Source: Streptomyces sp. V3I8 (GTDB lineage Bacteria > Actinomycetota > Actinomycetes > Streptomycetales > Streptomycetaceae). Taken from it: 64,000 nucleotides of DNA. The DNA is taken from contig NZ_JAUSZL010000002.1 of assembly GCF_030817535.1 (NCBI RefSeq), forward strand, positions 6,076,001 to 6,140,000. The letters are read 5' to 3'. Positions 41,850-64,000 of this stretch are shown in pieces; position 1 is the stretch's first letter, and every line of letters starts with the position of its first letter. The position numbers and the translations under genes were made by a program. The notes under the pieces were generated by a model, which saw nothing but the letters and a program-made list of their open reading frames with translations, was not told the origin of the DNA and did no database searches.

Positions 41850-42692
41850 GTGGCAGACATAAATATGGAACGGTCGACGGAAAGTGCTCGTGCGGCATCG
41901 CCGCGGCGTTATCTGATGTGTCGCCCCACACACTTTGATGTCACGTATTCGATCAACCCGTGGATGGACCCGAGCAAGCCCACCTCGGCAGAGGTCGGGC
42001 TGGCCCAGTGGGAGGAGCTGCACGACACGTTCGTCGAACTCGGCCACGAGGTGCAGCTCATAGAGCCGGTGCCGGGACTGCCCGACATGGTGTTCGCCGC
42101 GAACGGTGCCATCGTCATAGACAACAAGGTGCTCGTCGCCCGCTTCCGGCATTCCCAGCGTGTCGACGAGTCGGCCGCCTACCTCGAGTGGTTCAGCCGT
42201 GGCGGCTGGTCGGAGGTTCGGCAGGCCGAGTACGTCAATGAGGGCGAAGGCGACTTCCTCTTCGCGGGTGGGGAGATCCTCGCCGGCAGCGGGTTCCGCT
42301 CCGACCTGCGGTCGCACGACGAGGTGAGCGAGTTCTTCGGCCGTCCCGTGGTGACCTTGACACTGGTCGATCCGCGGTTCTACCACCTCGACACGGCGTT
42401 GTCGGTGCTCGCGGACGGGGAGATCATGTACAACCGGGCGGCGTTCTCCCCGGAGAGCCAGTCGGTTCTGGCCGAGCGTTTCCCCGACGCGATCCTGGCT
42501 GACCGGGCCGACGCGGTCACCTTCGGCCTGAACGCCCTGTCGGACGGTCGGAACGTGATACTGCCGCAGCAGGCCGTGGGTCTCGCGGCGCAGTTGCGCG
42601 AGCGCGGCTATCACCCCGTCGGGGCCGACCTGACCGAGCTCCTGAAGGCGGGCGGCAGCGTCAAGTGCTGCACGCTCGAGCTGCGGGGCTAG
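41850..42692 (+). CDS. Pentein-family amidinohydrolase (dimethylargininase-like)
   Basis: About 280 residues from a GTG at 41850 (an ATG at 41865 is the alternative). It has the DDAH-like blocks FAANGAIVID, NEGEGDFLFAGG, FYHLDTALSVL with the catalytic His, and the nucleophile Cys in SVKCCTLELRG. The family hydrolyses arginine or methylated arginines to citrulline, or moves amidino groups. It is the first gene on the cluster side of rnpB. It could be a core gene or supply a precursor; a guanidino or citrulline unit in the product is one idea. Confidence 0.82.
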   Translation: MADINMERSTESARAASPRRYLMCRPTHFDVTYSINPWMDPSKPTSAEVGLAQWEELHDTFVELGHEVQLIEPVPGLPDMVFAANGAIVIDNKVLVARFRHSQRVDESAAYLEWFSRGGWSEVRQAEYVNEGEGDFLFAGGEILAGSGFRSDLRSHDEVSEFFGRPVVTLTLVDPRFYHLDTALSVLADGEIMYNRAAFSPESQSVLAERFPDAILADRADAVTFGLNALSDGRNVILPQQAVGLAAQLRERGYHPVGADLTELLKAGGSVKCCTLELRG

Positions 42693-42734
42693 GCGTGTTC
42701 CGGGCACCGGCCGAACGTGGCCGGGCCGTCCGGT

Positions 42735-42761
42735 TGTCCTGTTGACGGGACGGCCCCGCCG
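42735..42761. promoter_or_regulatory. Palindromic site shared with the NRPS upstream region, copy 1
   Basis: TGTCCTGT-TG-ACGGGACG (one mismatch in each arm), followed by GCCCCGCCG. A nearly identical 21-base segment (GTTGACGGGACGGCCCNGCCG) recurs at 62474-62494, upstream of the NRPS gene. Confidence 0.5.
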
Positions 42762-42960
42762 ACTGGTCCGGCTGATCCTGCACAAAGCGCTTTCCGGTTC
42801 ACCGGACATCCGTCGGAGGGTATATTCGGGCGCAGCCGGAATCAGAAACCGGAAATGCGGGAGCGTGTGCGGTCAGTGCTTGCCGGTCGGAAATTCGGTC
42901 GGCACCGGACAATCAGTCGAATATATCGGGTGATTGCTGTGTCGTTCGTATTTCAGGCGC

Positions 42961-42992
42961 ACCTTCCGGGTCGTTCTGTCGACCCGGAAGGT
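42961..42992. terminator. Perfect hairpin upstream of the thioesterase
   Basis: ACCTTCCGGGTCG-TTCTGT-CGACCCGGAAGGT: 13-bp perfect stem, 6-base loop, no U tract. It lies 110 bases before the thioesterase ATG and may be a terminator, attenuator or protein site. The whole gap 42693-43101 holds no convincing gene. Confidence 0.6.
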
Positions 42993-43101
42993 TCTCCCGA
43001 AGGCCAATATTTTAGCGATTTCGGCAGCCTACCGAGCGCGCCGGCGAGTAATACGCGCAGAGCCCTCCGCGATCGTGCCCCGGAACACGGAGGAAGAAGC
43101 G

Positions 43102-43923
43102 ATGAAGAGCATGCGCCGCCACGACGCCGTGCGCAGCAGCTGGATACGCCAGTTCCACGAACCGCGAGACGACGGTCGTCTGACGGTGATCTGCTTTCCG
43201 CACGCCGGAGGATCCGCGTCGGCCTACTTCTCCCTGTCGGAGGCGCTGTCCGCCACGGCCGATGTGCTGATCGTGCAGTATCCCGGCAGGCAGGACCGTC
43301 TGGACGAACCCCCTCTGGAGGATCTGCTGGAGATGGCGGACCGCGCCACCGAGGCTCTGGAACCCTGGCGGGACAGGCCGGTAGCCCTTTTCGGGCACAG
43401 CATGGGATCCGCCCTGGCTTACGAGGTCGCGCTGCGGATGGAACGGCGACCGGGCAGCGACCTGTCGGGTCTGATCGTCTCGGGCCGTGCGGCGCCGTCC
43501 GTCCGCCAGGACCGCGGCCTCCACCGGCTGGACGACGAGGGCATCACCAAGCGCATGGTGGAGCTCGCGGGGACACCGCCGGCCCTGCTGGCCGACAAGG
43601 AGCTTCTGGCGACGGTCATCCCGCCCCTGCGCGCCGACTTCAAGGCAGTGGAGACGTACCAGGGACTCCCGGGCGACAAGGTCGGTTGCCCCATCAGCGG
43701 TTACTGCGGGGAGCAGGACACGGACGTGCCGCGCGACGGATTCCTCAAGTGGCGCGAACACACGACGGCGCAGTGCACGACCAGGTTCTTCGACGGCGGT
43801 CACTTCTATCTCCAGTCACAGGTGCCTGAGGTGGCCCGGACCATCTCGCGGGACCTGGCGGCCTTCTCCCTCGCGTACCGCGGTGAGGAACCGCTTTCCG
43901 CGGCCGGTCGACGCAGCGTGTGA
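43102..43923 (+). CDS. Type II thioesterase
   Basis: A 273-residue alpha/beta hydrolase. The nucleophile elbow is GHSMGS, the start motif is CFPHAGGSASAYF, and the late His is in FFDGGHFYL. Type II thioesterases clear misprimed carrier proteins of NRPS or PKS lines. The ATG at 43102 has AGGAAGAA ahead. This supports an NRPS cluster beginning in this area. Confidence 0.93.
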   Translation: MKSMRRHDAVRSSWIRQFHEPRDDGRLTVICFPHAGGSASAYFSLSEALSATADVLIVQYPGRQDRLDEPPLEDLLEMADRATEALEPWRDRPVALFGHSMGSALAYEVALRMERRPGSDLSGLIVSGRAAPSVRQDRGLHRLDDEGITKRMVELAGTPPALLADKELLATVIPPLRADFKAVETYQGLPGDKVGCPISGYCGEQDTDVPRDGFLKWREHTTAQCTTRFFDGGHFYLQSQVPEVARTISRDLAAFSLAYRGEEPLSAAGRRSV

Positions 43924-44179: not shown

Positions 44180-45186
<1,007 letters not shown>

Positions 45187-45190
<4 letters not shown>

Positions 45191-46053
45191 CCACCCCCAC
45201 CGTCCCGACCACCCCGACCGCCCCGGTGCCCGCGCCGCCGCGCGCCAGGGACGGTTTCGGACAGTCCGTCCGTGACTCGATCGTCATCGCCAAGACCAAC
45301 CTGCTCCGACTGACGCGGGTCCCCGAGGTCGTCATCTTCACGATGATCCAGCCGGTCATCTTCGTCGTGATGTTCTCGTACGTGTTCGGCGGGTCCATGA
45401 GCGTCGGCGGGACCGCGGCCCCCAGCGTCTATCGCGAGTTCCTGATGGTCGGCATCTTCGCCCAGACCGTCGTCTTCGCCACCGTGACCTCCAGTGGTGC
45501 CATCGCCCACGACATGAGCAAGGGACTCATCGACCGGTTCCGGTCGCTGCCGATGGCGCGCGGCGCGGTGCTCAGCGGCCGGACGTTCGCCGACCTGGTG
45601 CTGATGACGTTCACCGTGATCGTGCTGGCGATCGTCGGGGCACTGGTCGGCTGGCGCTTCCACGAAGGCGTACCCAAGGCGCTGGCGGCCTTCGGCCTGG
45701 TCGTTCTGCTCGGGTACGCGTTCACCTGGGTCGGCGCGCTGATCGGTGTGTCGGTCCGTAGCCCCGAAGCCGCGTCCTCCGCGCCGATGCTCTGGATCCT
45801 TCCGGTCACGTTCATCTCCAACGCCTTCGTGGACCCCGGACAGATGACACCCTGGCTGCGGCACGTGGCTGACTGGAACCCCTTCAGCGCCACCGTGCAG
45901 GCCGGCCGGGAGCTGTTCGGCAACCCGGGTGTCCGGACGTCGGACGCCTGGCCGATGGAGAACGCGGTGCTCGCCTCGCTGATCTACTCGGTCGTCATCA
46001 TCGTCGTCTGCCGCACCCTCGCCGTGCGCAAGTACCGGAATTCCACTTCGTAG
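45187..46053 (+). CDS. DrrB-like ABC-2 permease
   Basis: A 288-residue membrane protein with six helices and the DrrB/ABC-2 layout (PEVVIFTMIQPVIFVVMF, GAIAHDMSKGLIDRFRSLPM, LPVTFISNAFVDP). Its GTG overlaps the ATPase stop by four bases. It forms the export channel of the pair. Confidence 0.92.
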
Positions 46054-46185: not shown

Positions 46186-47403
46186 TCAGGGCAGCACGCA
46201 TGGGGTGGGCACACCGGCGCACGGATCCCGCGGACTGCTCGGCGGAGGGCTGAAAGAAGCATCGAGGCGCCGGTACGCGTAAGCGGAGGAGACAAGGGCC
46301 ATGTGGCGGTGCCAGCCGGGAAAGGAGCGGCCCTCGAAGTCGCCGAGGCCGAAGTCGCGCTTCATGATGCCGATGGAGGTGGTGACACTCGTTCTCAGCG
46401 TGGACAGGGACATGACCTCGTCGAGGGGCCGGTCGGTGAGGTTGGTGATCCAGACGGGGCCGGAGCGGTGGTCCTGGGTCACTTCGGCCAGGAGGCGAAA
46501 GGGGACATCGGGCCCGGCGGTTCGGCCACCGGGCAGGCGGATCAGCGCGGACCGGACCTGTGCGCGCCGCTGCTGGCCGCCCTCCGAGGTGACCACCACG
46601 TCGTGGGTGGTGGAGGCGGAGGCCACGCACTCGGCGGCACTGAGGAGCACCCGGGTGGGCGGAGCGCCCTCGCCGGTGGGATGGACCCTCAGATGCGGGG
46701 GCAGCGTGACGACGAAATCGCGCTCTCGCCGGCTGAGCCCACGCACGAACGGGTCCGCGTCGGGAGTGCCGCTCATGTCGGCCACGAGAGGAACGGAAGG
46801 GCAAACCGTGCGGTCGGCCAAGGTGTCGACGAGATCGAGCATCTGAGCTCCCAGCGGGCGGTACTCCACCGCTTCCGGGACGCGTGCGCGCCGGCGCAGC
46901 TGCTCGTCCTTCGTCCACATCGCGGGCAGATGCAGCCGCCACTCGACGGGTACCTGCACCGATCCTATGGAGACGAACGCGCCAATTCCCAATTGGCAGT
47001 TGAGGGTGCGCTCAGAGATCGGGTCGAAGTAGCGGTGCACGCCGACCGACTGCTCACCCGACTTGGGTATGACCACGCGTTGGATCGTCCACGCGGAGGC
47101 GGGTCTGCACGCCTCGGCCCAGCGGGTGAGGTTGCGCATGACCGAATCCCAGTCCCATGGGCTGGTGGAGACGAACTGGCGAAGCGACTGGGCGGCAGTG
47201 GGCGAGGTGGACACGCAGAGGGCCAGGCGCCGCACGGACTTGTTCCCCGGCGTGATGAGCAGTCCCGACAAGTAGGCCCGCGCCCACCTTCGTTGGTCGG
47301 CCCGTCTCATACCGCTGAAGATTTCGTCGGAAAAGGCGACCAAGTCTGAGTCGAGGTCGGCAAGGGTCCGCTGTTCACTCGCGGCTGCGCCGAGCCTGGT
47401 CAT
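46186..47403 (-). CDS. IS701-transposase-like protein lacking the first catalytic Asp
   Basis: A 405-residue protein from an ATG at 47403 (AAGGGGAA ahead). It aligns by eye with IS701 DDE transposases. The block usually written IDDTGFPKKGKHSVGV reads IQRVVIPKSGEQSVGV here, so the first DD is lost. The second Asp (LVADMSG) and the late Glu (FGLGDFEGRSFPGWHRH) remain. No terminal inverted repeats were noticed around it. It is therefore probably a domesticated, non-cutting protein, perhaps a DNA-binding regulator of the cluster. Confidence 0.8.
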   Translation of the reverse strand: MTRLGAAASEQRTLADLDSDLVAFSDEIFSGMRRADQRRWARAYLSGLLITPGNKSVRRLALCVSTSPTAAQSLRQFVSTSPWDWDSVMRNLTRWAEACRPASAWTIQRVVIPKSGEQSVGVHRYFDPISERTLNCQLGIGAFVSIGSVQVPVEWRLHLPAMWTKDEQLRRRARVPEAVEYRPLGAQMLDLVDTLADRTVCPSVPLVADMSGTPDADPFVRGLSRRERDFVVTLPPHLRVHPTGEGAPPTRVLLSAAECVASASTTHDVVVTSEGGQQRRAQVRSALIRLPGGRTAGPDVPFRLLAEVTQDHRSGPVWITNLTDRPLDEVMSLSTLRTSVTTSIGIMKRDFGLGDFEGRSFPGWHRHMALVSSAYAYRRLDASFSPPPSSPRDPCAGVPTPCVLP

Positions 47404-48064: not shown

Positions 48065-48739
48065 ATGTCGAAAACCGACGCAACGAAGTCTGTGCTGTTC
48101 CGAAAGAGAGCGGAATCCGTCCCGAGGCAGGGCGGTGGCGTCAATGAAGTCGGACAACCCGCTCAGGTCCTCACCACGAAAGTAGGTCTGCAGTTACCTG
48201 CTGGACTCACCTTTGAGAACTGGGAGTCGGCGGGACGTCAGCTCTCCGGAATCGTCAACTCGACCTCCTGGTGGCTCGGTGACTGGCTGGTGTACGGGAA
48301 GGACCACTACAGCGACCGGTACGAGCGAGGAGTTCGTGCGGCCGGCCTTCAGTACCAGACGCTGCGGAATTACGCCTGGGTGTCCCGTCGGTTCCCCATG
48401 GACCGGCGACGAGCCGCGCTGAGTTTTCAACACCACGCCGAGCTGGCTTCCCGGCCGGTCGAGGAGCAGGAGCGGTGGCTCGATCAGGCCGAGCAGCAGG
48501 GCTGGAGCACCAAGCAGTTGCGCCGGGCCATGCGCGTCGCGCGCGGGGAAGAGGCGCGGGAGACACTGCAGGCCGATCTGACAAGGCGGCTCGCCGTACC
48601 TGACAACCGTCTTCAGTGGTGGCACAAGGCGGCGACGCAGTCCGGGGTCGAACTCGAGCAGTGGGTTCTCGCCACGCTCGACCACGCGGCTGGACAGGTC
48701 CTGGAAGAACTGCAGGAGCAGGCCAGCGTCAGTGCCTGA
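48065..48739 (+). CDS. LmbU-family transcriptional regulator
   Basis: A 224-residue member of the LmbU family (lincomycin LmbU, novobiocin NovE, himastatin HmtD). The family core is readable: WESAGRQLSGIVNSTSWWLG, then DWLVYGKDHYSDRYERGV and YAWVSRRFPMDRRR. The basic, helical C-terminal half (RRAMRVARGEE) ends in HAAGQVLEELQEQ. These proteins are cluster-situated activators. The start ATG at 48065 lies after GGGGGA. Confidence 0.9.
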   Translation: MSKTDATKSVLFRKRAESVPRQGGGVNEVGQPAQVLTTKVGLQLPAGLTFENWESAGRQLSGIVNSTSWWLGDWLVYGKDHYSDRYERGVRAAGLQYQTLRNYAWVSRRFPMDRRRAALSFQHHAELASRPVEEQERWLDQAEQQGWSTKQLRRAMRVARGEEARETLQADLTRRLAVPDNRLQWWHKAATQSGVELEQWVLATLDHAAGQVLEELQEQASVSA

Positions 48740-48827: not shown

Positions 48828-49484
48828 TCAGGGACCTGTGTGTGGCAGCCGGCTCATCAGCTCCGCGGTCTCGCGGTGCCGGGTGCACTCGCGCCCGCCG
48901 AACGACTTCTGCACGCGGTCGCGGACCTCGGTGGGCTGCTCCTGGCTGAGCTTGAACATGCCCTCGGCCCCGGTCACCGTCACCCGGAACGCGCCGACGG
49001 CCGGGACGATCTTGCGGAAGTAGTCGACCGACTCCGATTGGTCCCAGCCGTCCCCGAACCGTGCCTCGAAGGTCAGCGCAGTGGCCTGTACGACGTCGAG
49101 CGTCTCCTCGAGGGAATCGATTTTCTCCACCACGCCGCGCACGTGTACCGACGTGAAGTTCCACGTCGGCGCGGCCGGCGTCACCTCGTACACCGCCGGC
49201 GAGACATATGCATGCGGTCCGGTGAAAGAAAGCAGAATGACGTCTTCGGTCTCCAGGGCCCGCCAATGAGGATTGGCTCTGTTCATGTGTCCCAGCAGAG
49301 TGGCCCCTGTCAGGTCGTCCGGCCATTTGTCGGCCGCTTGGGGATCGGGGATGACAGGAAGATGCGTGGCATAGGGCCCGTCGTCGGCGCTGCCGTTGAT
49401 CACCGCAAGTGCCAACGGATTTTCGCGGATCAGATCGGCCATCCACGAGCTGTCCGGCTCGCGGTAGTGGCTGGGAACGAACAC
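48828..49484 (-). CDS. PaiB/KtzT-like piperazate synthase
   Basis: A 218-residue protein of the PaiB/FMN-binding split-barrel group, to which piperazate synthases (KtzT, PipS) belong. Visible family blocks are GATLLGHMNRANPHW, SFTGPHAYVSPAVYE and PTWNFTSVHVRG. In the pathway a heme-dependent member closes N5-hydroxy-ornithine to L-piperazic acid with N-N bond formation. The divergent neighbour is an ornithine N-hydroxylase, which fits. A simple PaiB-type regulator is possible but less likely in this setting. Confidence 0.82.
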   Translation of the reverse strand: MFVPSHYREPDSSWMADLIRENPLALAVINGSADDGPYATHLPVIPDPQAADKWPDDLTGATLLGHMNRANPHWRALETEDVILLSFTGPHAYVSPAVYEVTPAAPTWNFTSVHVRGVVEKIDSLEETLDVVQATALTFEARFGDGWDQSESVDYFRKIVPAVGAFRVTVTGAEGMFKLSQEQPTEVRDRVQKSFGGRECTRHRETAELMSRLPHTGP

Positions 49485-49875: not shown

Positions 49876-51195
49876 ATGGGTACCAGTGCACAACAGATAT
49901 ACGACGTGGTCGGCATCGGCTTCGGCCCGTCCAACCTGTCACTCGCCATCGCTCTGGAGGAGCACCGGGCCAACTCCTCCGCGCACCCGGTCACCGCCGC
50001 GTTCTTCGAGCGCCAGCCCGCGTTCGGCTGGCACCGCAACATGCTGTTGCCGTCGACGACGATGCAGGTGTCCTTCCTGAAGGACCTGGCCACCTTCCGT
50101 AACCCGGTTTCCCGGTTCAGTTTCGTCTCGTATCTGCACGCCACCGGTCGGCTGGCGAAATTCGTCAACACCCAGACGTTCTTCCCGACACGGCACCAAT
50201 TCCATCAGTACCTCGAGTGGGCGGAGTCGAGTCTCGCGGACCGCGTCTCGTACAACGCGTCGGTCACGCGGATCGGACTGCCGCCGGAGGGCGTTTCCGG
50301 GGCATCCCCGTACGTACAGGTGGAAGTGGAGAACGGGGACGGATCAGGCACCCGGCTGGTCAACGCGCGCAACGTGGCCATCTCGACAGGGCTCGTGCCG
50401 AGGCTGCCGGAAGGCGTGGAGCGCGATGAACGCGTGTGGCACAGCTCGGAGTTCCTGGAGAGGTTCCGGCGGATGGCCCCCGACGAGCTGAGGAGGGTGG
50501 CGGTGGTCGGCGCCGGCCAGAGCGCGGCCGAGATCACCAGGTTCCTGTACGACAGCCTCCCGCATGCCCAGGTCTCCGCGATCATCCCGTCCTACGGGTA
50601 CTCCGTCGCCGACGACACTCCCTTCGCCAACCAGGTGTTCGACGCCGGTGCCGTCGACGACTACTACTTCGGCACGGCCCGTACCCGCGAAGCCTTCTGG
50701 CACTATCACAAGAACACGAACTACTCCGTGGTCGACGACGAGGTCATCAGGGACCTGCACCGACGGGCGTACGACGAGGAGGTGAGCGGCGTCAAGCGCC
50801 TTCACTTCCTGAACCTGACCAGGGTCGACGAAGTCAAGCGGGTCGGCCACGAGACACGCGTCTCGATGGAGTCGCTGCTCGACAGCGGTTCGCAGGAACT
50901 CGACGTGGACGCGCTCGTCTTCGCGAGCGGCTACGACGCCATGGAGCCGAGCGGGCTCCTCGGCGACCTCGACCGGTACTGCCTGCGTGATGCGGCGGGC
51001 CGGCACCAGGTGGAGCGCGACTACCGACTCGTCACCACACCGGAGCTGCCCTGCGGCATCTATCTCCAGGGCGGCACCGAGCACACGCACGGACTCAGCT
51101 CGTCGCTGCTCTCGAACATCGCGGTGCGCAGCGGTGAGATAGCCGACTCCATCGTCGGAGCACGCGTCCGGAGCGAATTGGCGACGGCGCCGTAG
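49876..51195 (+). CDS. L-ornithine N5-hydroxylase (KtzI-like)
   Basis: A 439-residue flavin-dependent N-monooxygenase. The FAD motif is VGIGFGPSNLSLAIAL (near residue 13), the NADPH motif VGAGQSAAEITRFLY, and later blocks are FASGYD and GGTEHTHGLSSSLLSN, all typical of ornithine/lysine N-hydroxylases. It makes N5-hydroxy-L-ornithine, the substrate of the piperazate synthase. The same type makes siderophores, but the PaiB-type neighbour points to piperazate. Confidence 0.9.
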   Translation: MGTSAQQIYDVVGIGFGPSNLSLAIALEEHRANSSAHPVTAAFFERQPAFGWHRNMLLPSTTMQVSFLKDLATFRNPVSRFSFVSYLHATGRLAKFVNTQTFFPTRHQFHQYLEWAESSLADRVSYNASVTRIGLPPEGVSGASPYVQVEVENGDGSGTRLVNARNVAISTGLVPRLPEGVERDERVWHSSEFLERFRRMAPDELRRVAVVGAGQSAAEITRFLYDSLPHAQVSAIIPSYGYSVADDTPFANQVFDAGAVDDYYFGTARTREAFWHYHKNTNYSVVDDEVIRDLHRRAYDEEVSGVKRLHFLNLTRVDEVKRVGHETRVSMESLLDSGSQELDVDALVFASGYDAMEPSGLLGDLDRYCLRDAAGRHQVERDYRLVTTPELPCGIYLQGGTEHTHGLSSSLLSNIAVRSGEIADSIVGARVRSELATAP

Positions 51196-51510: not shown

Positions 51511-51582
51511 GTGGTCCACCCGATGTTCCGGGCGGTGCGCCGAACGGCCGCATGCCCCTCTCGTACGGTGTCAATCCGGTGA
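51511..51582 (+). CDS. Short leader ORF coupled to the rmlA start
   Basis: A 23-codon frame from a GTG at 51511, with a strong GGAGGAG site, to a TGA at 51580-51582 that overlaps the GTG start of rmlA (GTGA). The rmlA start has no good site of its own, so the ribosome may be delivered by this leader. The peptide (VVHPMFRAVRRTAACPSR...) has no known relative. Confidence 0.6.
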   Translation: MVHPMFRAVRRTAACPSRTVSIR

Positions 51583-54601: not shown

Positions 54602-54608
54602 ACAGGCT

Positions 54609-55994
54609 TCAGGCCTTCAGCGTGTTCAGGCAGATCAGGAGCGTCCGTGCCTGGACGCTGACGTAGTGGCTGTACTGAACGAGGGCGGCCAGCTGGTCGC
54701 GCGAGACCCAGCGGAATCCGGGCGGAGCGTCGAGCGGCGCCTCGCTCTCGTCGGCCTCCACGACGAGGTAGCGGCTCACCGCGTCCAGGAAGCGTCCGCC
54801 CTCCTCGGAGTGCAGCGCCGAGTAACGGATCCGGGACGGGTCGGCCGCCGTCACCAGGTCGAGGAAGCGCGGTCTGTCCTCGGCGGGCAGATGCGCGTAG
54901 TTGCCGGGCGTGCACTGGACGGTGGGGCCGAGCTCGGCGTCCAGGAAGCCGCCCTCCGCGCAGGCGCGCACGAGCACATGCGGCACGCCCTCGACGGAGC
55001 GGGTCAGGAAGGCGACGATGCCTTGTCCACGGGGTTCGAACAGGGGCTGGGTCCAGCGGCTGACCTCGCGGTTGCCCGCCTCCACGGACACGGCCACGAC
55101 ACGGAAGTACCGGTCGTCCTCGTGGTCGACCGTGTGGGTGCCGGTCGTCCAGCCGGGAAGGCCGGACAGCGGGACGCGTTCCGCGCGGATCGGGGTCACG
55201 GAGCGCACGGCGGAGAGCCAGGAGAGCAGCTCCGTGTCGGAGTGCAGGGCATGGGAAGCGCTCGGGCCGTACAGGCCGGCCAGGGCCGAGCGGGCGTCCA
55301 TGTTCACCGTGTTGTCGTGGCCGAGGAGTTCATGGATCTGGCCCAGGGTGAGCCAGCGGAAGTCCTCGTGCTCCGGCACCGGACCGATCGCCTCGACGAC
55401 CATGTTGCGGTTGCGCTTGCGGTGGAACCAGGAACCGTGCTCGGACTGCAACACGTCCGACAGGACGCGGCCCCGGGACGGGTCGGTGAAGTACTCCAGA
55501 TGACGGACGGCCGCGCCCTTGTGGACCTTGGTGTAATTGCTGTACGTCGCCTGCACCGTGGGCGACAGCTGCAGCAGCTCGGGGTTGCCGGGCTCCATCT
55601 TGGCCTGCATCAGGAAGTGCAGGGTCCCGTCGAACTCCCGGGCCAGGATGCCCAGGATGCCGACCTCGGGCTGGACGATGATGGGTTGATGCCACTGGGC
55701 GCGACCGGGTTCCTCACCGACGCCGACGCGCAGCCCCTCCACGGTGAAGAAGCGACCGCTGCGGTGCACGAGATTTCCGGTCCCCGGGGCGAACGACCAG
55801 CCGTCGAGGGAGTCGAAGGGGATGCGGTCCACCGTGAAACGGACTTCCTTGCGGCGCTGGTGGAGCCAACCGCGGATCTCGTCCGCGGACTCGCCCGTCA
55901 GCGCGGCAGCGGACCGTGCGACGCGGTCGGGCAGCGTGGCATCCTGCCTGGCCCTGAGCGCCGGCCGCGGCGACGTGTCCCCCGTCGCGGTCAT
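54609..55994 (-). CDS. NDP-hexose 2,3-dehydratase
   Basis: A 461-residue protein made of two similar halves, as in this family: [20 protein letters not shown] then [11 protein letters not shown], and later [20 protein letters not shown] then [11 protein letters not shown]. It removes water from dTDP-4-keto-6-deoxyglucose to start C2 deoxygenation. The ATG at 55994 overlaps the stop of the 3-dehydratase gene by four bases, so they share an operon. Confidence 0.93.
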
Positions 55995-57295
55995 CGGTGG
56001 CTTCCCACGAAGTCGGACACGGAGGAGATGATGTAGTCGAGCATCTCGTCGGTGAGGCCGGGATAGACGCCTACCCAGAAGGTGTGCTCGGTCACGATGT
56101 CGCTGTTCGTGAGCGTGCCGGAGACCCTGAACTCGCGGTCGGAGTAAGCCGGGTGGCGCGTCAGGTTCCCGGCGAACAGCCTGCGCGTGCCGATCTTCCG
56201 GCTCTCCAGGAAGTGCACGAGTTCCGAGCGGTGGAAGGGCGCCTCGGGGTCGACGGTGATGACGAAGCCGAACCAGCTCGGGTCGCTGCCCGGAGTGGGC
56301 TCCGGCAGCAGGAGCCACGGAACATCCGCGAGGCCCTCCCGCAGCCGGCTCCAGTTGCGCCGCCGCGCCGCGCAGAAGTCGTCGAGTTTCTCCAACTGGG
56401 CCAGACCGAGCGCGGCCTGGAGGTCGGTCGCCTTCAGGTTGTAACCCACGTGCGAGAAGATGTACTTGTGGTCGTAGCCGGCCGGCAGCGTCCCCATCTG
56501 GTAGCCGAACCGCTTGCGGCAGGTGTCGTTCTCGCCCGGTTCGCACCAGCAGTCCCGGCCCCAGTCCCGCAGCGACTCCACGATCCGGGCCAGTGCCAGG
56601 TTCGAGGTGAGCACACAGCCGCCCTCGCCCATGGTGAGGTGGTGGGCCGGATAGAAGCTGACGGTGGTGAGGTCGCCGAACGTGCCGACGAGCTGCCCGT
56701 TGTAAGTGGTGCCGACGGCGTCGCAGGAGTCCTCGATCAGCAGGAGGTCGTGTTCCTCGGCGAGCTGTGCCACCTCCGCGACCTCGAAGGGATTGCCGAG
56801 GGCGTGCGCGAGGATGACGGCTCGGGTGCGGGGACCGATCGCCTTCTCGATGCGTTCGGCCGTGGTGTTGTACGTGTGCAGGTCGATGTCCACGAAGACG
56901 GGGACGAGACCGTTCTGCAGGATCGGGTTCACGGTGGTGGGGAAGCCCGCCGCCACCGTGATCACCTCATCGCCGGGCCTGAGCCTGCGGTCCCCGAGCT
57001 GCGGAGACGTCAGGGCGGTGATGGCCAGGAGGTTCGCCGAGGAGCCGGAGTTGGTCAGATGCGCCTTGCGCCGCTTCATTCTGCGGGCGAACGACGACTC
57101 GAACTTGCGGGACGACTTGCCCGCCGCGATGCGCATGTCCAGGGCGGCCTCGACGAGAGCTGCCCGGTCGTTCTCGTCGAGCACCGCACCGGACGGCCAG
57201 ATCTCCGTGACGCCGGGAACGAAGGCCCGGTCGTCCTGGATGTCCAGATGGTGCTTGCGGACCTCATCGAGGATGTGCGCGGCCCGATCACTCAT
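55991..57295 (-). CDS. E1-type PLP/iron-sulfur NDP-hexose 3-dehydratase (SpnQ/UrdQ-like)
   Basis: A 434-residue aspartate-aminotransferase-fold enzyme. The usual PLP lysine is replaced by His ([14 protein letters not shown], His218-His219), the mark of C3-dehydratases. Cysteines at 191, 249, 251 and 259 ([20 protein letters not shown]) fit the [2Fe-2S] ligands of the E1 class. With an external reductase it removes the C3 oxygen to give a 2,3,6-trideoxy sugar. The 4-ketoreductase gene overlaps by 8 bases. Confidence 0.93.
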
Positions 57296-58328
57296 TGCTG
57301 TCCTTCCCTCGGCCGTTGGCCGTCGCGGAGTTGGGTCCTTGTGGCACCTCGGGGGCGGGCACTCCCGCGGTCGCGAGCAGATCGCGGACGGAGTCCGCCA
57401 GGACGCGACGCGGTGCCCAGCCGAGCAGTCGACGTGCCCGTGAGATGTCCAGGCGCTGCCACAGGGTGTCCGAGCGGCTCGCCTGTGCGGCCTGTTCCTC
57501 CTGTACGAGGACGGAGCGGCCACTGCACGTGATCATCAGGTCGACGAGCTTGCGGATCGGAACGGTTTCGCCCCGCCCGATGTTGACGACGGCCCCCGCG
57601 TCGGCGATCGCGGCCGCCGGAATCCGGGCCGCCGCCACGACGGCCTCGGCCACGTCCCGCACATCCACCACGTCGCGATGGGCGAGCAGGGGTGCGAGCC
57701 GCAGCACGTCGTGCCCCGCCGCCAGGTTGGCGGCCACGGTCCCGGGCAGGCTGCCCGGCGGGGCGCCCGGTCCGCACGTGACGGAGACACGCAGCACGAG
57801 TCCGTTGACCTCCCGTTCCCGGACGGCGCGGACGACGGTGCGGGTGCCTGCCAGTTTGGTGCGGCCGTAGGCGGTCGCCGGTGCGGGCGGCCAGTCCTCG
57901 TCGATGAAGTCGTCAGGACCGGCCGGTCCGTACTCGTGGGTGCTGCCGAGCTGGATGAGACGGGGCCGATGCGGCAAGGTGGCGACGGCGTCCGTCAGCC
58001 GCTCCACCAGGCGGGTGTTGAGCTCGGTCATCTCGTTCTCGGTGCCCTCCCAGACCGCGCCCACGGCGTTCACCACGACCTGCGCCCCGGAGTCGACGCA
58101 CAGGCGGACGAGTTCGGCGGAGCCGGCGGCCGTGAGGTCGAGGTGCACGGTGTCGGGCACGACGTCCCGGGGCACACCGCCCGATCCGTTCGCACCGTCA
58201 CGGTGGGCGCCCCGGCTGACCCGGATCACCCGGGCGCCCGCCGCGGCGAACGCCGTGCAGATGTGCTGGCCCAGGTAGCCGGTCGCACCCAGTACGAGGA
58301 CCGACTGGCCGGTCAGTACTCGGTTCAC
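57288..58328 (-). CDS. NDP-hexose 4-ketoreductase
   Basis: A 346-residue extended SDR from a GTG at 58328. The cofactor motif is [13 protein letters not shown], and the Tyr-x3-Lys catalytic pair is [10 protein letters not shown]. It reduces the C4 keto group to finish the sugar and sets its C4 configuration. It is the first gene of the minus-strand operon 4KR - 3-dehydratase - 2,3-dehydratase. Confidence 0.88.
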
Positions 58329-58679
58329 GGGCGGGCACTGTCCTTGTCGTAAGCCGTGCCCGTAGTGAGCGCGGTGGCGATGGCGTCGACTTGGACGCAT
58401 TGAACCTGTGCGAACTGAGGCTGAAAGCTCCCTGCCATCCGGCCCTCCCACTCTGTAAGTGCTCCACACGAACCGGTGCGGCGAGTCTGGCGCGCGCGGC
58501 TAAAGCCGATCTAGGCCCGGTCTTTCGCGCCGTAGGCCGAAGGAGGAGGGGGAAGGGGAGGGGATCACAGCGGTGCCACGGCCCACGGTTCGGTTCGAGG
58601 CGGGTCAAGAACAGTTCAAGGTCCGCTTAAGCCGGGTCGGCGACGGTTCGACGTAACGAATTCTATGGAGGAGTTGACT
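58329..58679. promoter_or_regulatory. Divergent promoter region with SARP-like direct repeats
   Basis: A 351-base gap between the 4-ketoreductase and the first glycosyltransferase. TTCGAGG at 58594, GTCAAGA at 58604 and TTCAAGG at 58615 form heptamers 10-11 bases apart, the spacing used by SARP activators. A CTTAAG-containing segment follows. The SARP gene in this cluster could bind here. Confidence 0.55.
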
Positions 58680-59984
58680 GTGCGCGTCTTGTTCGTGACA
58701 TGGCCTTGGCAGACTCACTTTCAGCCCACCGTGCCGCTGGCCTGGGCGCTGCAGACGGCGGGGCACGAGGTGCGTGTCGCCAGTGGTCCGGAACTGACGG
58801 ATGTCATCACCAAGTCCGGCCTGACGGCGGTGCCGGTGGGCTCCGACGTGCCCGTCCTGCAGAAGCTGACCGAGACCTTCACCGAAGAGCACCAGGAGAT
58901 CGTCGACACCCTGGAGAAGCTCGGCCCGCGGGACGACCTCCTCTTCGAATTCGCCGACAACCGCGAGGAGATGCTCACCTGGGACCGGATGCGGTGGCTG
59001 ACACGCTACCTCGCCGAGATCCTCAAGGGCATGAACGACTCGATGGTCGAGGACCTGGTGGAGTACAGCCGCTGGTGGAAGCCCGACCTGGTCGTCTGGG
59101 ACTGGCTGAGCTACGCGGGCTCGATCGCGGCCACCGCGGTCGGTGCGGCCCACGCGCGCATCCACGCCGAGATCGATGTGGACGCACGGTTCCGGCGCAA
59201 CTTCGTGCGGGTGCGCGAGGAGCAGGCCCCGGAGGTCCGCGAGGACGCGATGGCGGACTGGCTCGGCGGCTGGGCGGAGAAGTACGGAAAGTCCTTCTCC
59301 GAGGAGATGGTGTCCGGACAGTTCACCATCGACCACATGCTCGGTTCGCTCCACCTGGAGACGAACGTGCCACACGTCGCGGTCCGTTATGTTCCGTACA
59401 ACGGGACCTCCGTCGTGCCGGACTGGATCCGCCGGGACCCCGCCAAGCGCCGCGTGCTCGCGACCTTCGGAGTGAGTCAGGAGAAGAGCGGCGACTACCA
59501 GGCTTTCTCCATCGAGCAGTTGCAGGACATGCTGGACTCCCTGGCCGACCTCGACATCGAGCTCGTGGTGACCCTGCCCGAGCAACTCCAGAAGGAACTC
59601 AAGCGCGTTCCCGACAACACGCGCCTGGTGGAGTTCGTGCCGCTGCACACCATCATCCCGTCGTGCTCGGCCGTGATCCATCACGGAGGGGTCCCCGCCT
59701 TCCTGGACTCGGTCGCCCATGAGGTGCCCCAGCTGTTCGTCGGCCGTGTCGTTCCGGACGTCGAGGAGCGCGGTGAGCGCATGGAGGAGGCCGGGGCCGG
59801 TCTGAGCATCCCGCCCGCGGAACTGAGCGGGAAGCGGATCAAGGAGAGCCTGGTGCGGCTCCTGGACGAGCCGGCGTTCCGCGAAGGCGCGGCGCGGCTG
59901 CGGGAAGAGCGGCTCACCCAGCCGACGCCCGCCGAAGCGGTCCGGGAACTGGAGGCGATGGTGGAGCGCCTGCGTTCCCGCTGA
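58680..59984 (+). CDS. Activator-type GT-B glycosyltransferase 1
   Basis: A 434-residue glycosyltransferase of the DesVII/EryCIII-like family. It has the N-terminal RVLFVTWPWQTHFQPTVPLA and the sugar-nucleotide region with SAVIHHGGVPAFLDSVAHEVPQL. The GTG at 58680 has GGAGGAG six bases ahead, so the ATG at 58665 within that site is rejected. It probably attaches the trideoxyhexose to the peptide or to a first sugar. It is the same length as, and strongly similar to, the next gene. No P450-like helper gene is seen in the window. Confidence 0.92.
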   Translation: MRVLFVTWPWQTHFQPTVPLAWALQTAGHEVRVASGPELTDVITKSGLTAVPVGSDVPVLQKLTETFTEEHQEIVDTLEKLGPRDDLLFEFADNREEMLTWDRMRWLTRYLAEILKGMNDSMVEDLVEYSRWWKPDLVVWDWLSYAGSIAATAVGAAHARIHAEIDVDARFRRNFVRVREEQAPEVREDAMADWLGGWAEKYGKSFSEEMVSGQFTIDHMLGSLHLETNVPHVAVRYVPYNGTSVVPDWIRRDPAKRRVLATFGVSQEKSGDYQAFSIEQLQDMLDSLADLDIELVVTLPEQLQKELKRVPDNTRLVEFVPLHTIIPSCSAVIHHGGVPAFLDSVAHEVPQLFVGRVVPDVEERGERMEEAGAGLSIPPAELSGKRIKESLVRLLDEPAFREGAARLREERLTQPTPAEAVRELEAMVERLRSR

Positions 59985-60076
59985 GCCCGTCATCGTCAGG
60001 TGTCCGCCGGGGGTCCCGAAGCACCGGCGGAGAAGCGGGTCCCGATGATGCTGTGTCTACGGAGGAGTTGACCGCT

Positions 60077-61381
60077 GTGCGCGTTTTGTTCGTCACCATT
60101 CCCTGGCGAAGCCATCTCCACCTCGTCGTGCCGACGGGCTGGGCCCTGCAGAGCGCCGGGCACGAGGTGCGTGTGGCCAGTGGCCCCGAGCTGACCGAGG
60201 TCATCACCAGCTCGGGTCTGACAGCGGTCCCGGTCGGTTCCGACGAGCCCGTCATGGAGAAACTGGAACGGCTGCAGGACGCGGAGGTCCTGAAGAAGGT
60301 CGAGGAACTCGCGGAGCGCGGCGACCTCCTGGTCGACATGTCGGAGAACCGCGAGGAGGAGCTCACCTGGGAGCGTCTGCGATGGGCGTACCGGATGTAC
60401 CGAAAGACCCATGCGGCCATGAACGACTCGATGGTCGAGGATCTGGTGGAGTACTGCCGTTGGTGGAAGCCCGACCTGGTCGTCTGGGACTGGCTGAGCT
60501 ACGCGGGCCCGATCGCGGCCACCGTGGTGGGAGCGGCCCACGCACGCATGCCGATCGGGCTGAACGTCGAGGCTCAGATGCGGGCGAACTACCTGAGGGT
60601 GCGGGAGCAGCAGGCCCCGGAGAACCGCGAGGACCCGTTGGGGGATTGGCTGGGAGAGTGGGCGCAGAAGTACGGTAAGTCGTTCTCCGAGGAGATGGCG
60701 ACCGGACAGTTCACCATCGACCAGATGGTGGGGTCGATGGTGCTGACGTCGGACGTTCCTCACCTGCCCATCGACTACGTCCCGTACAACGGTCCCTCCG
60801 TCGTGCCGGACTGGACCCGCAGCACTCCGTCCAGGCCGCGAGTTCTGGCCACGTTCGGAGTGAGCCTGGAGCAGGCGGTGCGGCATCAGGCCCTGTCCGT
60901 CGAGCAGTTGCAGGGGATGCTGGACTCCGTCGCCGACCTCGACATCGAGCTGGTGCTGACCCTGCCCGAGCAACTGCAGAAGGAACTGGAGCGCGTTCCC
61001 GACAACACGCGCCTGGTGGAGTTCGTGCCGTTGCACGTCATCATCCCGTCGTGCTCGGCCGTGCTCCACCACGGTGGCATCGGCCCCTTCCTGGACTCCA
61101 TCGCCCATGAGGTGCCCCAGCTGATGGTCAGCCGGGTTCTGCCCGACATCGGCGAGCGTGGTCCGCGACTGCAGAGGGCCGGGGCCGGCCTGTGGGTTTC
61201 GGGCGATGATCCGGAAGAGCTGAGCGGGGCGCGGATCAGGGAACACCTGGTGCGCCTCCTGGAGGAGCCGGCGTTCCGCGAAGGTGCCGCGCGACTGCGC
61301 CGGGAACTGGCCGCCCAGCCGACACCCGGCGAAGCGGTCCGGGAACTGGAGTCGCTCACCGACCGCTTCCGTACCCGCTAA
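60077..61381 (+). CDS. Activator-type GT-B glycosyltransferase 2
   Basis: A 434-residue paralog of the preceding enzyme (RVLFVTIPWRSHLHLVVPTG start, VLHHGGIGPFLDSIAHEVPQL). The GTG at 60077 follows GGAGGAG. Even the leader bases (TACGGAGGAGTTGACC) match gene 1, so this is a tandem duplication. The most different part is residues 55-110 and 175-200, where acceptor binding is expected. It may add a second sugar or act on another acceptor. Its stop codon overlaps the SARP gene's stop. Confidence 0.92.
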   Translation: MRVLFVTIPWRSHLHLVVPTGWALQSAGHEVRVASGPELTEVITSSGLTAVPVGSDEPVMEKLERLQDAEVLKKVEELAERGDLLVDMSENREEELTWERLRWAYRMYRKTHAAMNDSMVEDLVEYCRWWKPDLVVWDWLSYAGPIAATVVGAAHARMPIGLNVEAQMRANYLRVREQQAPENREDPLGDWLGEWAQKYGKSFSEEMATGQFTIDQMVGSMVLTSDVPHLPIDYVPYNGPSVVPDWTRSTPSRPRVLATFGVSLEQAVRHQALSVEQLQGMLDSVADLDIELVLTLPEQLQKELERVPDNTRLVEFVPLHVIIPSCSAVLHHGGIGPFLDSIAHEVPQLMVSRVLPDIGERGPRLQRAGAGLWVSGDDPEELSGARIREHLVRLLEEPAFREGAARLRRELAAQPTPGEAVRELESLTDRFRTR

Positions 61382-62130
61382 CGCCCCTCGTCCATCAGGA
61401 TCGCCCGTTGGACGTCCTGGAGTGCGGGGCCGGGCTCGACGCCCAGCTCGTCCCGGAGGGTGCGGCGCGCCCGCTGGTACACGAGCAGGGCGTCGCCCCG
61501 GCACTCGCTGCGGTGCAGCGCCATCATGAGCTGCCGGTGAAAGGCCTCCCGCAAGGGGTGCTCCGTACTGAGGAGATAGAGGTCGCTGACGAGTTCGCGG
61601 TGGTACCCGAGGGCCATGCGCGCTTCGATCAGGCTCTCCATGCACTCCAACTGGGCTTCGCTGAGCCAGGTGCGCAGCCCCTTGAGGATCGGTCCCGGTA
61701 CCCCGTCCGAGAGGAAGGGGCCCCGGCACAGGGTCAGCGCGACCTCGAAGCCGCTCATCGCGGCCTCGTACGCGCCGCTCCTGAGGTGGGCCCGGCCCTC
61801 CCTCATCAGGCGCTTGAAGTCGAGGAGGTCGATCTCGTCGGACCCCAGCGTCAGCAGCATGTACCCCGGGGGTCTGGTGAGGACGGGACTCGTCTCCTCC
61901 CCGGGGCGGCCGAGCATTTTGCGGATCTGGGAGATGTACACGTACAGGCCCGCGGTGGCGCTGCGCGGCGGGTCGTCGCCCCAGATCTCCCTGATGAGCT
62001 GGTCGGCGCCGACGACCTGGTCGGAGCGGGCGACCAGCGCGGCGAGAAGGGTTTCCACCTTCTGCGCCTTGATGGTTTTCGTGCTCGTTCCGTCGATGAC
62101 GCGGAGCTGCCCCAGAATCTCGTATCGCAC
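61378..62130 (-). CDS. SARP-family transcriptional activator
   Basis: A 250-residue SARP: an N-terminal winged helix (VRYEILGQLRV, QKVETLLAALVARSDQVVGA then YVYISQIRKML) and a bacterial transcriptional activation domain (YEAAMSGFEVALTLCRGPFL, HRQLMMALHRSECRGDALLV). It is a pathway-specific activator without an ATPase part. The GTG at 62130 has GGGAG eight bases ahead; a GTG at 62139 is possible. It points away from the NRPS gene. Confidence 0.92.
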   Translation of the reverse strand: MRYEILGQLRVIDGTSTKTIKAQKVETLLAALVARSDQVVGADQLIREIWGDDPPRSATAGLYVYISQIRKMLGRPGEETSPVLTRPPGYMLLTLGSDEIDLLDFKRLMREGRAHLRSGAYEAAMSGFEVALTLCRGPFLSDGVPGPILKGLRTWLSEAQLECMESLIEARMALGYHRELVSDLYLLSTEHPLREAFHRQLMMALHRSECRGDALLVYQRARRTLRDELGVEPGPALQDVQRAILMDEGR

Positions 62131-63012
62131 GCTGTGCACTCCCAATTCCTGGAAAGACGTTCGTCCGGGCCGGGCGACGCTGCTGCCCGAGAGAGCGCTT
62201 CGTCTGCACGGCAGAGAATTCATGCCGAAGCCAGTGAATTCGGAACGGCAATCCTTCTGCTTCTGGAATGTCTGCGGTGTGATCGTGCGCAATTCGGCAG
62301 ATGCATGAAAGTCAGGACGACGTCACGCGAACTTCGATCGAGGAGTTCAGTGCCTGCCGGCCCGGAAGACTTGGGGATCGGTGTCGAAGCACGGTCGGAC
62401 CTCACTTCGGCTGGGGTCGAACATACCTCAGGTCGGCCGTGGTGGACCGGGCGAAGCGGGCGCTCGACGTCCCGTTGACGGGACGGCCCTGCCGGACGGG
62501 ATGAAGTCGATTCAGGGGTCCCGGCCGAGCATTGACAGGCTGCCGGGTCGACGTGCTTACCTGATGGCACCGTGCGGGGCGATCAAGGTGGAAGCCGGGT
62601 CGTAAGGGGGGCGGAAGCCTACGGGAGAGGCGAAGTGCGGTAGTCCTGGCGTTGACCGAGACGCTCAGGAAGGCTGTTGTATCGTCATTCCCCGTCAATT
62701 TCCGGTGACGCTGGTCGGATTTTGTAATGCATCCCGTACTCCCGGAGACTGTTGTGCCACAGGAATGAGCGGAAAACTCTCAACGAAGAGTCGTCCTCTT
62801 TCCCTGCCGCTTTCCGCTGACCGTCGGCATCCGGGTGGCGATTCCAGGCCGGCGAACCGCCTCGGCGGCAGGATCGGCAGGACGCCCGGGGCGGCGTGTT
62901 CAACCGGGCGGTGTGTACGAGGCTTATGGCGTCGCCGAATCGGCGCACACGGTGAAGGACGCACCATCGGCGAATCGCCGCGTCTGCGCAGGATGAACAG
63001 GAGTTCCTAGTA
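62131..63012. other. Promoter region between SARP and the NRPS gene
   Basis: An 882-base non-coding gap with two promoters facing outwards. It holds the palindrome at 62468-62485 and a TTGACC / TTGTAT pair (62652-62657, 62677-62682, 19 bases apart). No reading frame on either strand looks coding, and no MbtH-like gene is present. Confidence 0.6.
62468..62494. promoter_or_regulatory. Palindromic site shared with the thioesterase upstream region, copy 2
   Basis: CGTCCCGT-TG-ACGGGACG is a perfect 8-bp inverted repeat (62468-62485). With GCCCTGCCG after it, it matches 20 of 21 bases of the site at 42741-42761. Confidence 0.55.
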
Positions 63013-64000
63013 ATGATCCCACTGTCTTTCGCGCAGCGGCGTCTGTGGTTCATCGACAAGTTCGAGGGCCCCTCCGCGACCTACAACGTGCCCTTCCTCG
63101 TACAGCTCACCGGGGAACTGAACACCGCGGCGCTCACGGCGGCGGTCCGCGACGTGGTGGCCCGTCACGAGAGCCTGCGCACCCTGATCGTGGAGAACGC
63201 CGAAGGGATTCCGGCGCAACAGGTGGTCCCGGTCGAGGAAGCCCTCCTGGACATCCCGCTCGTCGAGATCGGCCCCGAAGAGGTGGACGAGGCGGTACGG
63301 CGGGCCGCCGGCCGCACGATCACGTTGTCGGTGGAGATACCCGTCCGTGCGACCCTGTTCCGCACGGGCGCACAGGAACACCAGCTGCTGCTCCTGATCC
63401 ACCACATCGCCAGCGACGGCGAGTCCATCCTCCCGCTCGCGCGCGATCTGGACGCCGCCTATACGGCCCGGGTCAAGGGTGAGGCACCCGGCTGGCCCGA
63501 ACTCCCGGTCCAGTACACCGACTACACACTGTGGCAGCGCGAACTGCTCGGCGACGACCGGGATCCTGGCAGCGTTCTGGCGACTCAGCTCGACTACTGG
63601 CGTGACGAGCTGTCCGGTGTGCCTCAGCCTCTGCGCCTGTCCACGGACCGGCCGCGCCCCCCGGTGGTCAGCCACCGGGGCGATGTCGTCGAAGGCGGTG
63701 TCGGCGAGGATGTGCTCGACAAGGTCGAGAAGCTCGCCAGGCGCACCGGGGTGTCGGCACCGATGGTGTTCCAGGCCGCGCTCTCGGTCCTCCTGCAGCA
63801 GCTCGGTGCGGGCCAGGACGTCGCGATCGGCTCCACCATCGCGGGCCGGCGGGACGCCGACCTGGCGGATCTGGTGGGCTTCTTCGTCAACACGTGGGTT
63901 CTGCGTACCGACCTGTCGGGCGCCCCCTCCTTCGAGCAGGTCCTGGAGCAGGTGCAGCACAAGGCGCTGGCCGCGTACGACAACCAGGACGCCCCCTTCG
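63013..64000 (+). CDS. Nonribosomal peptide synthetase, N-terminal condensation domain, partial
   Basis: It begins at an ATG at 63013 (AGGAG nine bases ahead) and runs off the right edge. The 329 residues in the window are one condensation domain: the C1 block SFAQRRLWFI, the active-site HHIASDG (His130, His131, Asp135), and the later VGFFVNTWVLRTDL. A condensation domain at the very start suggests either a starter condensation domain that takes an acyl group or a synthetase that works after another one. Substrates cannot be read because no adenylation domain is in the window. Confidence 0.93.
   Translation, partial: MIPLSFAQRRLWFIDKFEGPSATYNVPFLVQLTGELNTAALTAAVRDVVARHESLRTLIVENAEGIPAQQVVPVEEALLDIPLVEIGPEEVDEAVRRAAGRTITLSVEIPVRATLFRTGAQEHQLLLLIHHIASDGESILPLARDLDAAYTARVKGEAPGWPELPVQYTDYTLWQRELLGDDRDPGSVLATQLDYWRDELSGVPQPLRLSTDRPRPPVVSHRGDVVEGGVGEDVLDKVEKLARRTGVSAPMVFQAALSVLLQQLGAGQDVAIGSTIAGRRDADLADLVGFFVNTWVLRTDLSGAPSFEQVLEQVQHKALAAYDNQDAPF

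Follow-up and report, generated by a model that had tools for sequence, protein, structure and literature searches.

Mollemycin A, from Streptomyces sp. CMB-M0244, is described in review passages as a glyco-hexadepsipeptide-polyketide with two piperazic acids and as a nanomolar antimalarial and antibacterial, and Jin et al. reported its biosynthetic pathway in 2024 (Synth Syst Biotechnol 9:445-452; reference in PMC12339860). Other described systems share parts with the gene cluster analysed here, which begins in a stretch of 64,000 nucleotides from Streptomyces sp. V3I8 (G000:C2:6076001-6140000, on one of four contigs in a 9.32-Mb genome; hereafter the window). Lunaemycin A, from S. lunaelactis MM109, has four piperazates, and its cluster includes a separate one-module nonribosomal peptide synthetase (NRPS), Lun20; the sections of the paper used here also name the himastatin and kutzneride synthetases as homologues of the lunaemycin synthetases (PMC9866976). 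The azinothricin-type systems of diperamycin (dpn) and aurantimycin (art) combine a polyketide synthase (PKS) with a six-module NRPS and two piperazates, with KtzI and KtzT in dpn; they have a starter condensation domain and an acyl chain, and the sections of PMC10888640 used here mention no sugar genes. In the ilamycin pathway, a PKS without thioesterase, a cytochrome P450 (P450), a type II thioesterase and an aminotransferase (IlaE, IlaD, IlaF, IlaH) provide an amino acid for the NRPS. According to the parts of PMC5577134 used here, knock-outs, labelling and feeding led to the conclusion that L-2-amino-4-hexenoic acid requires both the PKS and the P450; for the remaining steps the authors proposed an aminotransferase together with a hydrolase or thioesterase, and the aminotransferase and hydrolase mutants were still productive.

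We propose that the window probably holds the left part of one mollemycin-type cluster, making a glycosylated piperazate peptide-polyketide. Genes were called by codon usage, families were assigned by Pfam and NCBIfam scans, and the reading was extended to the right in the same genome, so that coordinates above 64000 are window coordinates continued rightwards (C2 position minus 6,076,000). The window truncates the cluster, whose full span is about 41964-119492, or about 78 kb. The likeness to mollemycin A, compared at class level, lies in six NRPS modules, two piperazate codes, PKS genes and glycosyltransferases. A first-pass annotation of the window had predicted a glycosylated piperazate-containing nonribosomal peptide from an undescribed-looking cluster. 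Every gene that it named is an intact open frame where it was placed, by gene caller and family scans, and both the product class and the gene roles agree with our analysis. The prediction was incomplete, as the PKSs, a third glycosyltransferase, a sugar oxidase, a 3,5-epimerase and NRPS2 lie outside the window; because of the PKS genes, the product would be a peptide-polyketide. The impression of an undescribed cluster is not supported, since mollemycin A fits the same description, its pathway is published, and two further genomes carry an orthologous cluster. We expect the product to be a cyclic hexa(depsi)peptide that bears sugars and includes two piperazates as well as one residue of polyketide origin.

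The genes for piperazate supply lie within the window:

48828..49484, minus strand, piperazate synthase of the KtzT type (FMN_bind_2/PaiB-type)
49876..51195, plus strand, L-ornithine N-hydroxylase of the KtzI type (PF13434, 352 bits)
41964..42692, plus strand, arginine dihydrolase-like gene (ArgZ/AgrE type) at the left end of the cluster

The gene at 48828-49484, annotated at first pass as PaiB/KtzT-like, belongs with the piperazate synthases: its product scores 404 bits to 9ebk, deposited in the PDB as 'Piperazate synthase', versus 87 bits to 2ol5 (PAI 2/PaiB). KLSQ flanked by M and E is given as the feature that distinguishes piperazate synthases from PaiB-like regulators (PMC10888640), and the protein carries both flanking residues in MFKLSQE. 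A search with KtzT matched 50 of 392 same-genus genomes (own included) at E <= 1e-30, and all 63 related KtzT loci in the named genome collection have the motif M[FY]KLSQ[ED]. The product of 41964-42692 scores 149 bits to Sll1336 (6jv0) versus 23 bits to human DDAH1 entries, and relatives of its gene are present in 18 of the 63 loci. We take Sll1336 (ArgZ) and Alr4995 (AgrE) to be arginine dihydrolases yielding ornithine; from this resemblance, the protein probably supplies ornithine. Arginine would thus be converted to ornithine by the 41964 gene product, N-hydroxylated by that of 49876 and closed to the piperazic acid ring by that of 48828. The arginine dihydrolase-like gene, like the IS701-like gene treated below, is a part of the cluster that the first-pass annotation did not mention.

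A siderophore reading of the ornithine hydroxylase was considered and rejected, because both score and motif identify the product of the adjoining gene as a piperazate synthase. Elsewhere in the same genome, a separate NRPS of 6534 aa lies with an ornithine hydroxylase-like gene (44% to KtzI) at C2:1384410-1411851, which is likely a hydroxamate siderophore locus. A second pair, KtzI-like (47%) and KtzT-like (50%, MFKLSQE), is found at C2:1117090-1121253 and possibly belongs to another N-N bond pathway.

The assembly line starts at the right edge of the window, with condensation (C), adenylation (A), thiolation (T), epimerization (E) and thioesterase (TE) domains and piperazate-coding modules marked Pip:

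63013-79350, plus strand, NRPS1 (start 63013..64000 inside the window), 5445 aa, C-A(Pip)-T-E-C-A(Pip)-T-C-A-T-E-C-A-T-TE
79360 onward, plus strand, MbtH
110367-118661, plus strand, NRPS2, 2764 aa, A-T-E-C-A[FkbM methyltransferase]-T

The NRPS of which the first-pass annotation had seen the start does not end at once beyond the window. Its four modules and the two of NRPS2 provide for a six-residue core. For the A codes, every A domain was compared with GrsA PheA in an alignment, and the same procedure recovered the first nine letters of the published code for six of seven lunaemycin A domains, the motif having missed the seventh. The code DVFSVAAYAK, printed for HmtL-A1 and four Lun22 domains in the part of PMC9866976 used here, is present in two of the six A domains, NRPS1 A1 and A2. 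Over the full length, NRPS1 shares 58% identity with Lun22; NRPS2 shares 55% with Lun23 over the first 1568 columns. The layout is indeed of the lunaemycin type (A-T-E-C-A-T, then C-A-T-E-C-A-T-C-A-T-E-C-A-T-TE), both in the domain order of the four-module terminal NRPS and in the A-T-E-C start of the first NRPS, with altered HHxxxDG motifs in two E domains; KtzI, KtzT, LmbU and MbtH are present in both clusters. In contrast, the lunaemycin cluster has no annotated PKS gene and no sugar-gene match in the 47 kb read. NRPS2 has neither an N-terminal C domain nor a TE domain, and NRPS1 has both; thus, NRPS2 presumably acts first. It would pass a dipeptide to NRPS1, the first two modules of which would load piperazate, and the NRPS1 thioesterase would close the ring.

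The sugar genes are mostly inside the window, and three more lie to its right:

51552..52484, plus strand, glucose-1-phosphate thymidylyltransferase, RmlA (TIGR01207, 378 bits, cut-off 361)
52484..53467, plus strand, dTDP-glucose 4,6-dehydratase (TIGR01181, 415 bits, cut-off 365)
53532..54521, plus strand, sugar 3-ketoreductase (361 bits to 3rbv, Sugar 3-ketoreductase)
54609..55994, minus strand, NDP-hexose 2,3-dehydratase (PF03559, 495 bits)
55991..57295, minus strand, 3-dehydrase of the ColD/E1 (SpnQ) type (519 bits to 3bcx; SFYPAHH, C-x-C-x7-C)
57288..58328, minus strand, short-chain dehydrogenase/reductase, probable sugar 4-ketoreductase by context (PF01370, 124 bits; best solved structure 50 bits)
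58665..59984, plus strand, glycosyltransferase 1, activator-dependent family (TIGR04516, 482 bits, cut-off 440)
60053..61381, plus strand, glycosyltransferase 2, activator-dependent family (TIGR04516, 471 bits, cut-off 440)
81057-82529, plus strand, AknOx-like FAD oxidase (AknOx, 552 bits)
82822-84126, plus strand, glycosyltransferase 3 (above the TIGR04516 cut-off)
118851-119492, plus strand, dTDP-4-keto sugar 3,5-epimerase (below the equivalog cut-off)

The set expected for a 2,3,6-trideoxyhexose is present: 2,3-dehydratase, 3-ketoreductase, 3-dehydrase dependent on pyridoxamine phosphate and, by context, 4-ketoreductase. The histidine of SFYPAHH in the 3-dehydrase stands at the position where aminotransferases have lysine. 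Together with this set, three glycosyltransferases above the family cut-off, mutually 68-73% identical, provide for glycosylation. Together with the 3,5-epimerase, these genes presumably lead to a 2,3,6-trideoxyhexose of the L series, for example rhodinose or amicetose; the dTDP-activated sugar would be made by the genes of 51552-58328 and the 118851 epimerase, and attached by the three glycosyltransferases. AknOx and GcnQ are described as oxidising terminal L-rhodinose to cinerulose or aculose in the part of PMC11375781 used here, and the AknOx-like enzyme would likewise oxidise a terminal sugar.

Most of this gene set is kept in two other genomes. The KtzT regions read in G247, G392, G326, G195 and G396 include orthologous clusters in two, S. 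orinoci NRRL B-3379 (G392:C43) and G247:C1, in which NRPS1 is 74% and 71% identical over the full length; KtzT, KtzI, three glycosyltransferases, the 2,3-dehydratase, the 3-dehydrase, P450s, DrrAB, LmbU and SARP are shared. They differ from the present cluster in a rearranged gene order, a shorter PKS (two KS motifs each), an oxidase without fused thioesterase and a 4-ketoreductase that is only about 30% identical. The 3,5-epimerase, the AknOx-like oxidase and the IS701-like gene have no match there at E <= 1e-5 in the 120 and 140 kb read; together with the divergent 4-ketoreductase, the missing epimerase and oxidase suggest a different sugar in these two clusters. More widely, the 2,3-dehydratase is found at E <= 1e-60 in 35 of 55 genome handles searched (49 KtzT relatives and six genomes behind named loci, among which G195/G394, G200/G393 and G073/G395 look like the same genomes counted twice). 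In G326 and G195, piperazate genes lie close to deoxysugar genes, accompanied by other NRPS and PKS genes, and in G122 a distance of 79 kb separates KtzT from the 2,3-dehydratase on the same contig. A relative of NRPS1 in Embleya (G396) is 76% identical over 0.45 of the length, and none of the eight sugar genes tested matched within the 80 kb read there. Piperazate and deoxysugar genes are thus an uncommon combination, yet not a unique one. As a separate observation, L128-L130 (G326:C1:2742892-2799621) bring together KtzT/KtzI, 2,3-dehydratase, RmlA, a glycosyltransferase, PKS and NRPS in a locus that is not orthologous to this cluster.

The polyketide part is a five-gene cassette (G000:C2:6160223-6184320) whose genes share a strand and overlap by 4 bases at two junctions; its PKS domains are ketosynthase (KS), acyltransferase (AT), dehydratase (DH), enoylreductase (ER), ketoreductase (KR) and acyl carrier protein (ACP):

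84223-86220, minus strand, fusion of a thioesterase and a hydroxyacid oxidase dependent on flavin mononucleotide (FMN)
86217-92684, minus strand, PKS2, KS-AT-DH-ER-KR-ACP
92681 to about 105802, minus strand, PKS1 (L009): shortened KS, AT, ACP, then two KS-AT-DH-KR-ACP modules
105962-107128, minus strand, P450b
107142-108320, minus strand, aminotransferase

PKS1 and PKS2 amount to a loading part and three extension modules, and neither has a thioesterase domain. The first KS of PKS1 is shortened and has no DTACSSSL active-site motif; the loading part is therefore unusual, and unusual KS1 motifs are mentioned for IlaE too (PMC5577134). The fused protein keeps SNHGGRQ and VKG in its oxidase (FMN_dh, 425 bits) and GHSMG in its thioesterase. 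By analogy with ilamycin, the cassette probably turns a polyketide into an alpha-amino acid: a short polyketide would be hydroxylated at the alpha-carbon, brought to the alpha-keto acid and transaminated, and the amino acid would serve one non-piperazate module. The hydroxyacid oxidase would do the second oxidation, whereas in the ilamycin pathway IlaD is proposed for alpha-oxidation to the keto level.

The cassette also occurs elsewhere. At E <= 1e-140, the fused protein finds matches in 8 of 392 genus genomes and 4 of 394 family genomes (own genome and G131 in both); G329 is among them. The order and direction of the genes are the same in each of the five copies contained whole in the DNA read (own, S. 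orinoci, G247, G136, G234), which lie beside different NRPSs; in G247 the gene caller split the PKS into four pieces. The cassette is spread over more than one contig in S. boncukensis, NRRL F-2664 and S. virginiae, and the stretches of G131, G403 and G555 begin inside PKS1. KtzT is not among the called genes of the stretches read in G136, G234 and G131, and the cassette is therefore not tied to piperazate. The thioesterase-oxidase fusion is near full length in the own genome, S. boncukensis, G399, G400, G131, G136 and G555; G403 matches it over 0.72, S. orinoci and G247 match the oxidase part only, and G234 has two separate neighbouring genes. Among open-licence papers in PubMed Central, nothing was found on an FMN-dependent enzyme with a PKS and an aminotransferase, a weak absence given that scope.

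Several points weigh against our proposal. First, the product is a prediction from gene content. Second, four of the six A codes have no residue assignment here: DAWMTGAVCK (NRPS1 A3), DTYAWVGAAK (NRPS1 A4), DMWTVGAVWK (NRPS2 A1) and DFWNVGGVF (NRPS2 A2). The S. orinoci counterpart of the last is DFWNVGMVH, which we take to be a threonine-type code. Third, no A-domain code is common to the cassette-holding clusters, so that the module for the cassette's product cannot be singled out; DMWTVGAVW occurs, among the domains read, in this cluster, S. orinoci and G247 only, and other codes are found in G399, G400, G403, G136, G234, G131 and G555. The S. boncukensis contig yielded no A domain, and in G247 the motif found five of six expected. 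The lack of a shared code neither proves nor kills the amino-acid reading, as the cassette products may differ between clusters. Fourth, HHxxxDG is replaced by HQFVVDA in the E domain of NRPS2 and by NHLVVDG in the second E domain of NRPS1, and the stereochemistry is therefore uncertain. Fifth, Asp235 is kept in all six A domains and no ketoreductase is seen in the NRPSs, which leaves a depsipeptide ester unexplained; a side-chain hydroxyl could form the ring ester. Sixth, the 3,5-epimerase reaches 134 bits versus an equivalog cut-off of 156, and the glycosyltransferases are of the activator-dependent type, yet the 30 matches to the family of P450-derived activators across the whole genome all fall below its cut-off. 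Last, the S. orinoci 3-ketoreductase (L123, G392:C43:72727 onward) matches over only 165 of 329 residues, and thus may be partly broken, frameshifted or badly called.

Within our proposal, the cluster may be identical with the mom cluster published for mollemycin A, or duplicate it and make the same product, a reading to which we give slightly less than an even chance. The class agrees in four respects (six modules, two piperazates, polyketide, glycosylation), and the pathway has been published; the 2024 study reportedly identified the mollemycin cluster for the first time. However, the closely related clusters of S. orinoci and G247 have a shorter PKS and another set of sugars, and class identity is therefore no proof of product identity.

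It is improbable that the cluster is of the azinothricin type, in which case the polyketide would be an N-terminal acyl chain set by a starter condensation domain, with the sugars on that chain. A PKS, six NRPS modules and two piperazates make up diperamycin and aurantimycin as well (PMC10888640), and S. aurantiacus JA 4570 (L076) is among the KtzT relatives. However, NRPS2 starts with an A domain and has no N-terminal C domain, whereas in the diperamycin line a starter C domain comes first; the PKS operon starts with the aminotransferase and P450 and ends with the thioesterase/hydroxyacid oxidase; and the NRPS1 layout is that of Lun22. Two neighbouring clusters touching by chance, a piperazate NRPS and an unrelated glycosylated polyketide, are most improbable. 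In favour of that reading, sugar and PKS genes flank the NRPS genes on both sides, the gene order of the relatives differs, and Streptomyces sp. DH41 (G195) has a sugar/PKS block and a piperazate NRPS block side by side. Against it, S. orinoci and G247 keep these parts together despite the rearranged order, and in all three clusters the sugar genes alternate with those for piperazate and the NRPSs.

Coming back to the single mollemycin-type cluster, two divergent genes beside the piperazate synthase deserve a separate account:

48065..48739, plus strand, LmbU-family regulator (NF038070, 225 bits, cut-off 125)
46186..47403, minus strand, IS701-like gene, divergent from LmbU (PF13546, DDE_5, 153 bits; NF033540)

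LmbU is present in 46 of the 63 KtzT loci, of which at most 10 kb on each side was covered, and lies at most 3 kb from KtzT in 42 of them, so that it looks like a standing regulator of piperazate genes. IS701-like relatives, 45-70% identical, occur in 16 of the 63 loci, all 16 with LmbU. With G555 and the window they make up 18 aligned members, for all of which NCBIfam gives the name IS701 transposase. The gene is divergent from LmbU in all 18, and the order KtzT> <LmbU IS-like> is kept in 17, KtzT being turned in L080. At the positions that we take to be catalytic in IS701/IS4 transposases, the DDT and the glutamate of R-x3-E-x6-K are absent in all 18 distinct rows, and one aspartate (D209) is kept. 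The 46186-47403 product thus does not carry the DDE catalytic acids of an active IS701 transposase; two DDE_5 genes of the same genome, L208 and L209, are broken by stops and keep DDTG and the glutamate. The IS701-like gene is single copy in its genome at E <= 1e-20. An AlphaFold model of its protein (mean pLDDT 84.3, pTM 0.83) matches Tn5 transposase-DNA complexes, with a best E of 2.9e-12 and a TM score of about 0.6.

A single-copy gene that has lost two of three catalytic positions, lies beside LmbU and encodes a Tn5 fold is therefore likely to be a retained, probably DNA-binding, non-transposing protein; in other words, it is probably domesticated, and we infer a regulatory role. The larger claim has two parts. 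The first is that 46186-47403 encodes a catalytically dead, Tn5-fold, DNA-binding partner of LmbU that helps to control Streptomyces piperazate clusters. The second is that the five-gene cassette is portable, passing from one NRPS cluster to another that is unrelated, and that its product is an alpha-amino acid derived from a polyketide. We judge both to be true together with an even chance. Against a general need for the protein, 30 of the 46 LmbU loci have no IS701-like gene within the DNA covered, and no match was found in the stretches read of S. orinoci, G247, the lunaemycin plasmid, NBC_00212 and Embleya; the gene is therefore not essential for the product class or for LmbU. Among the matches listed for LmbU, transposase and piperazate in open-licence papers in PubMed Central (title and abstract start), none was on such a protein.

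The remaining features of the cluster are the following:

43075..43923, plus strand, type II thioesterase (PF00975, 183 bits, scored on the longer frame 42934-43923)
44180..45190, plus strand, DrrA-type ABC transporter ATPase (PF00005, PF13732)
45187..46053, plus strand, DrrB-type ABC transporter permease (PF01061)
61378..62139, minus strand, SARP regulator (PF03704, 149 bits)
79665 onward, plus strand, P450a
109059-110279, plus strand, P450c

DrrAB would export the product, and LmbU and SARP would regulate the pathway. The type II thioesterase has relatives in the S. orinoci and G247 clusters (61% and 63%). The left edge of the cluster lies near the RNase P RNA, which ends at 41321 and is the only RNA family found in 41000-64000; there are no tRNA genes in the window. 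GC content, in 2-kb windows, is 0.71-0.75 over 20001-42000 versus 0.63-0.71 over 42001-64000. The family scans extended to 119492, and the genes to the right of it look unrelated by reading.

At least three related clusters with differing PKS length and sugars form a natural series for the roles of the polyketide and the sugars, and the strains that carry them are further places to seek mollemycin congeners. Two parts may come as a surprise to a specialist, the cassette and the probably domesticated transposase. The cassette would help to find NRPS products with polyketide-derived amino acids. Automatic annotation as a transposase hides the possible role of the IS701-like gene; if that role is real, a dead transposase beside a pathway regulator would be an uncommon recruitment of a bacterial insertion-sequence protein into antibiotic regulation.

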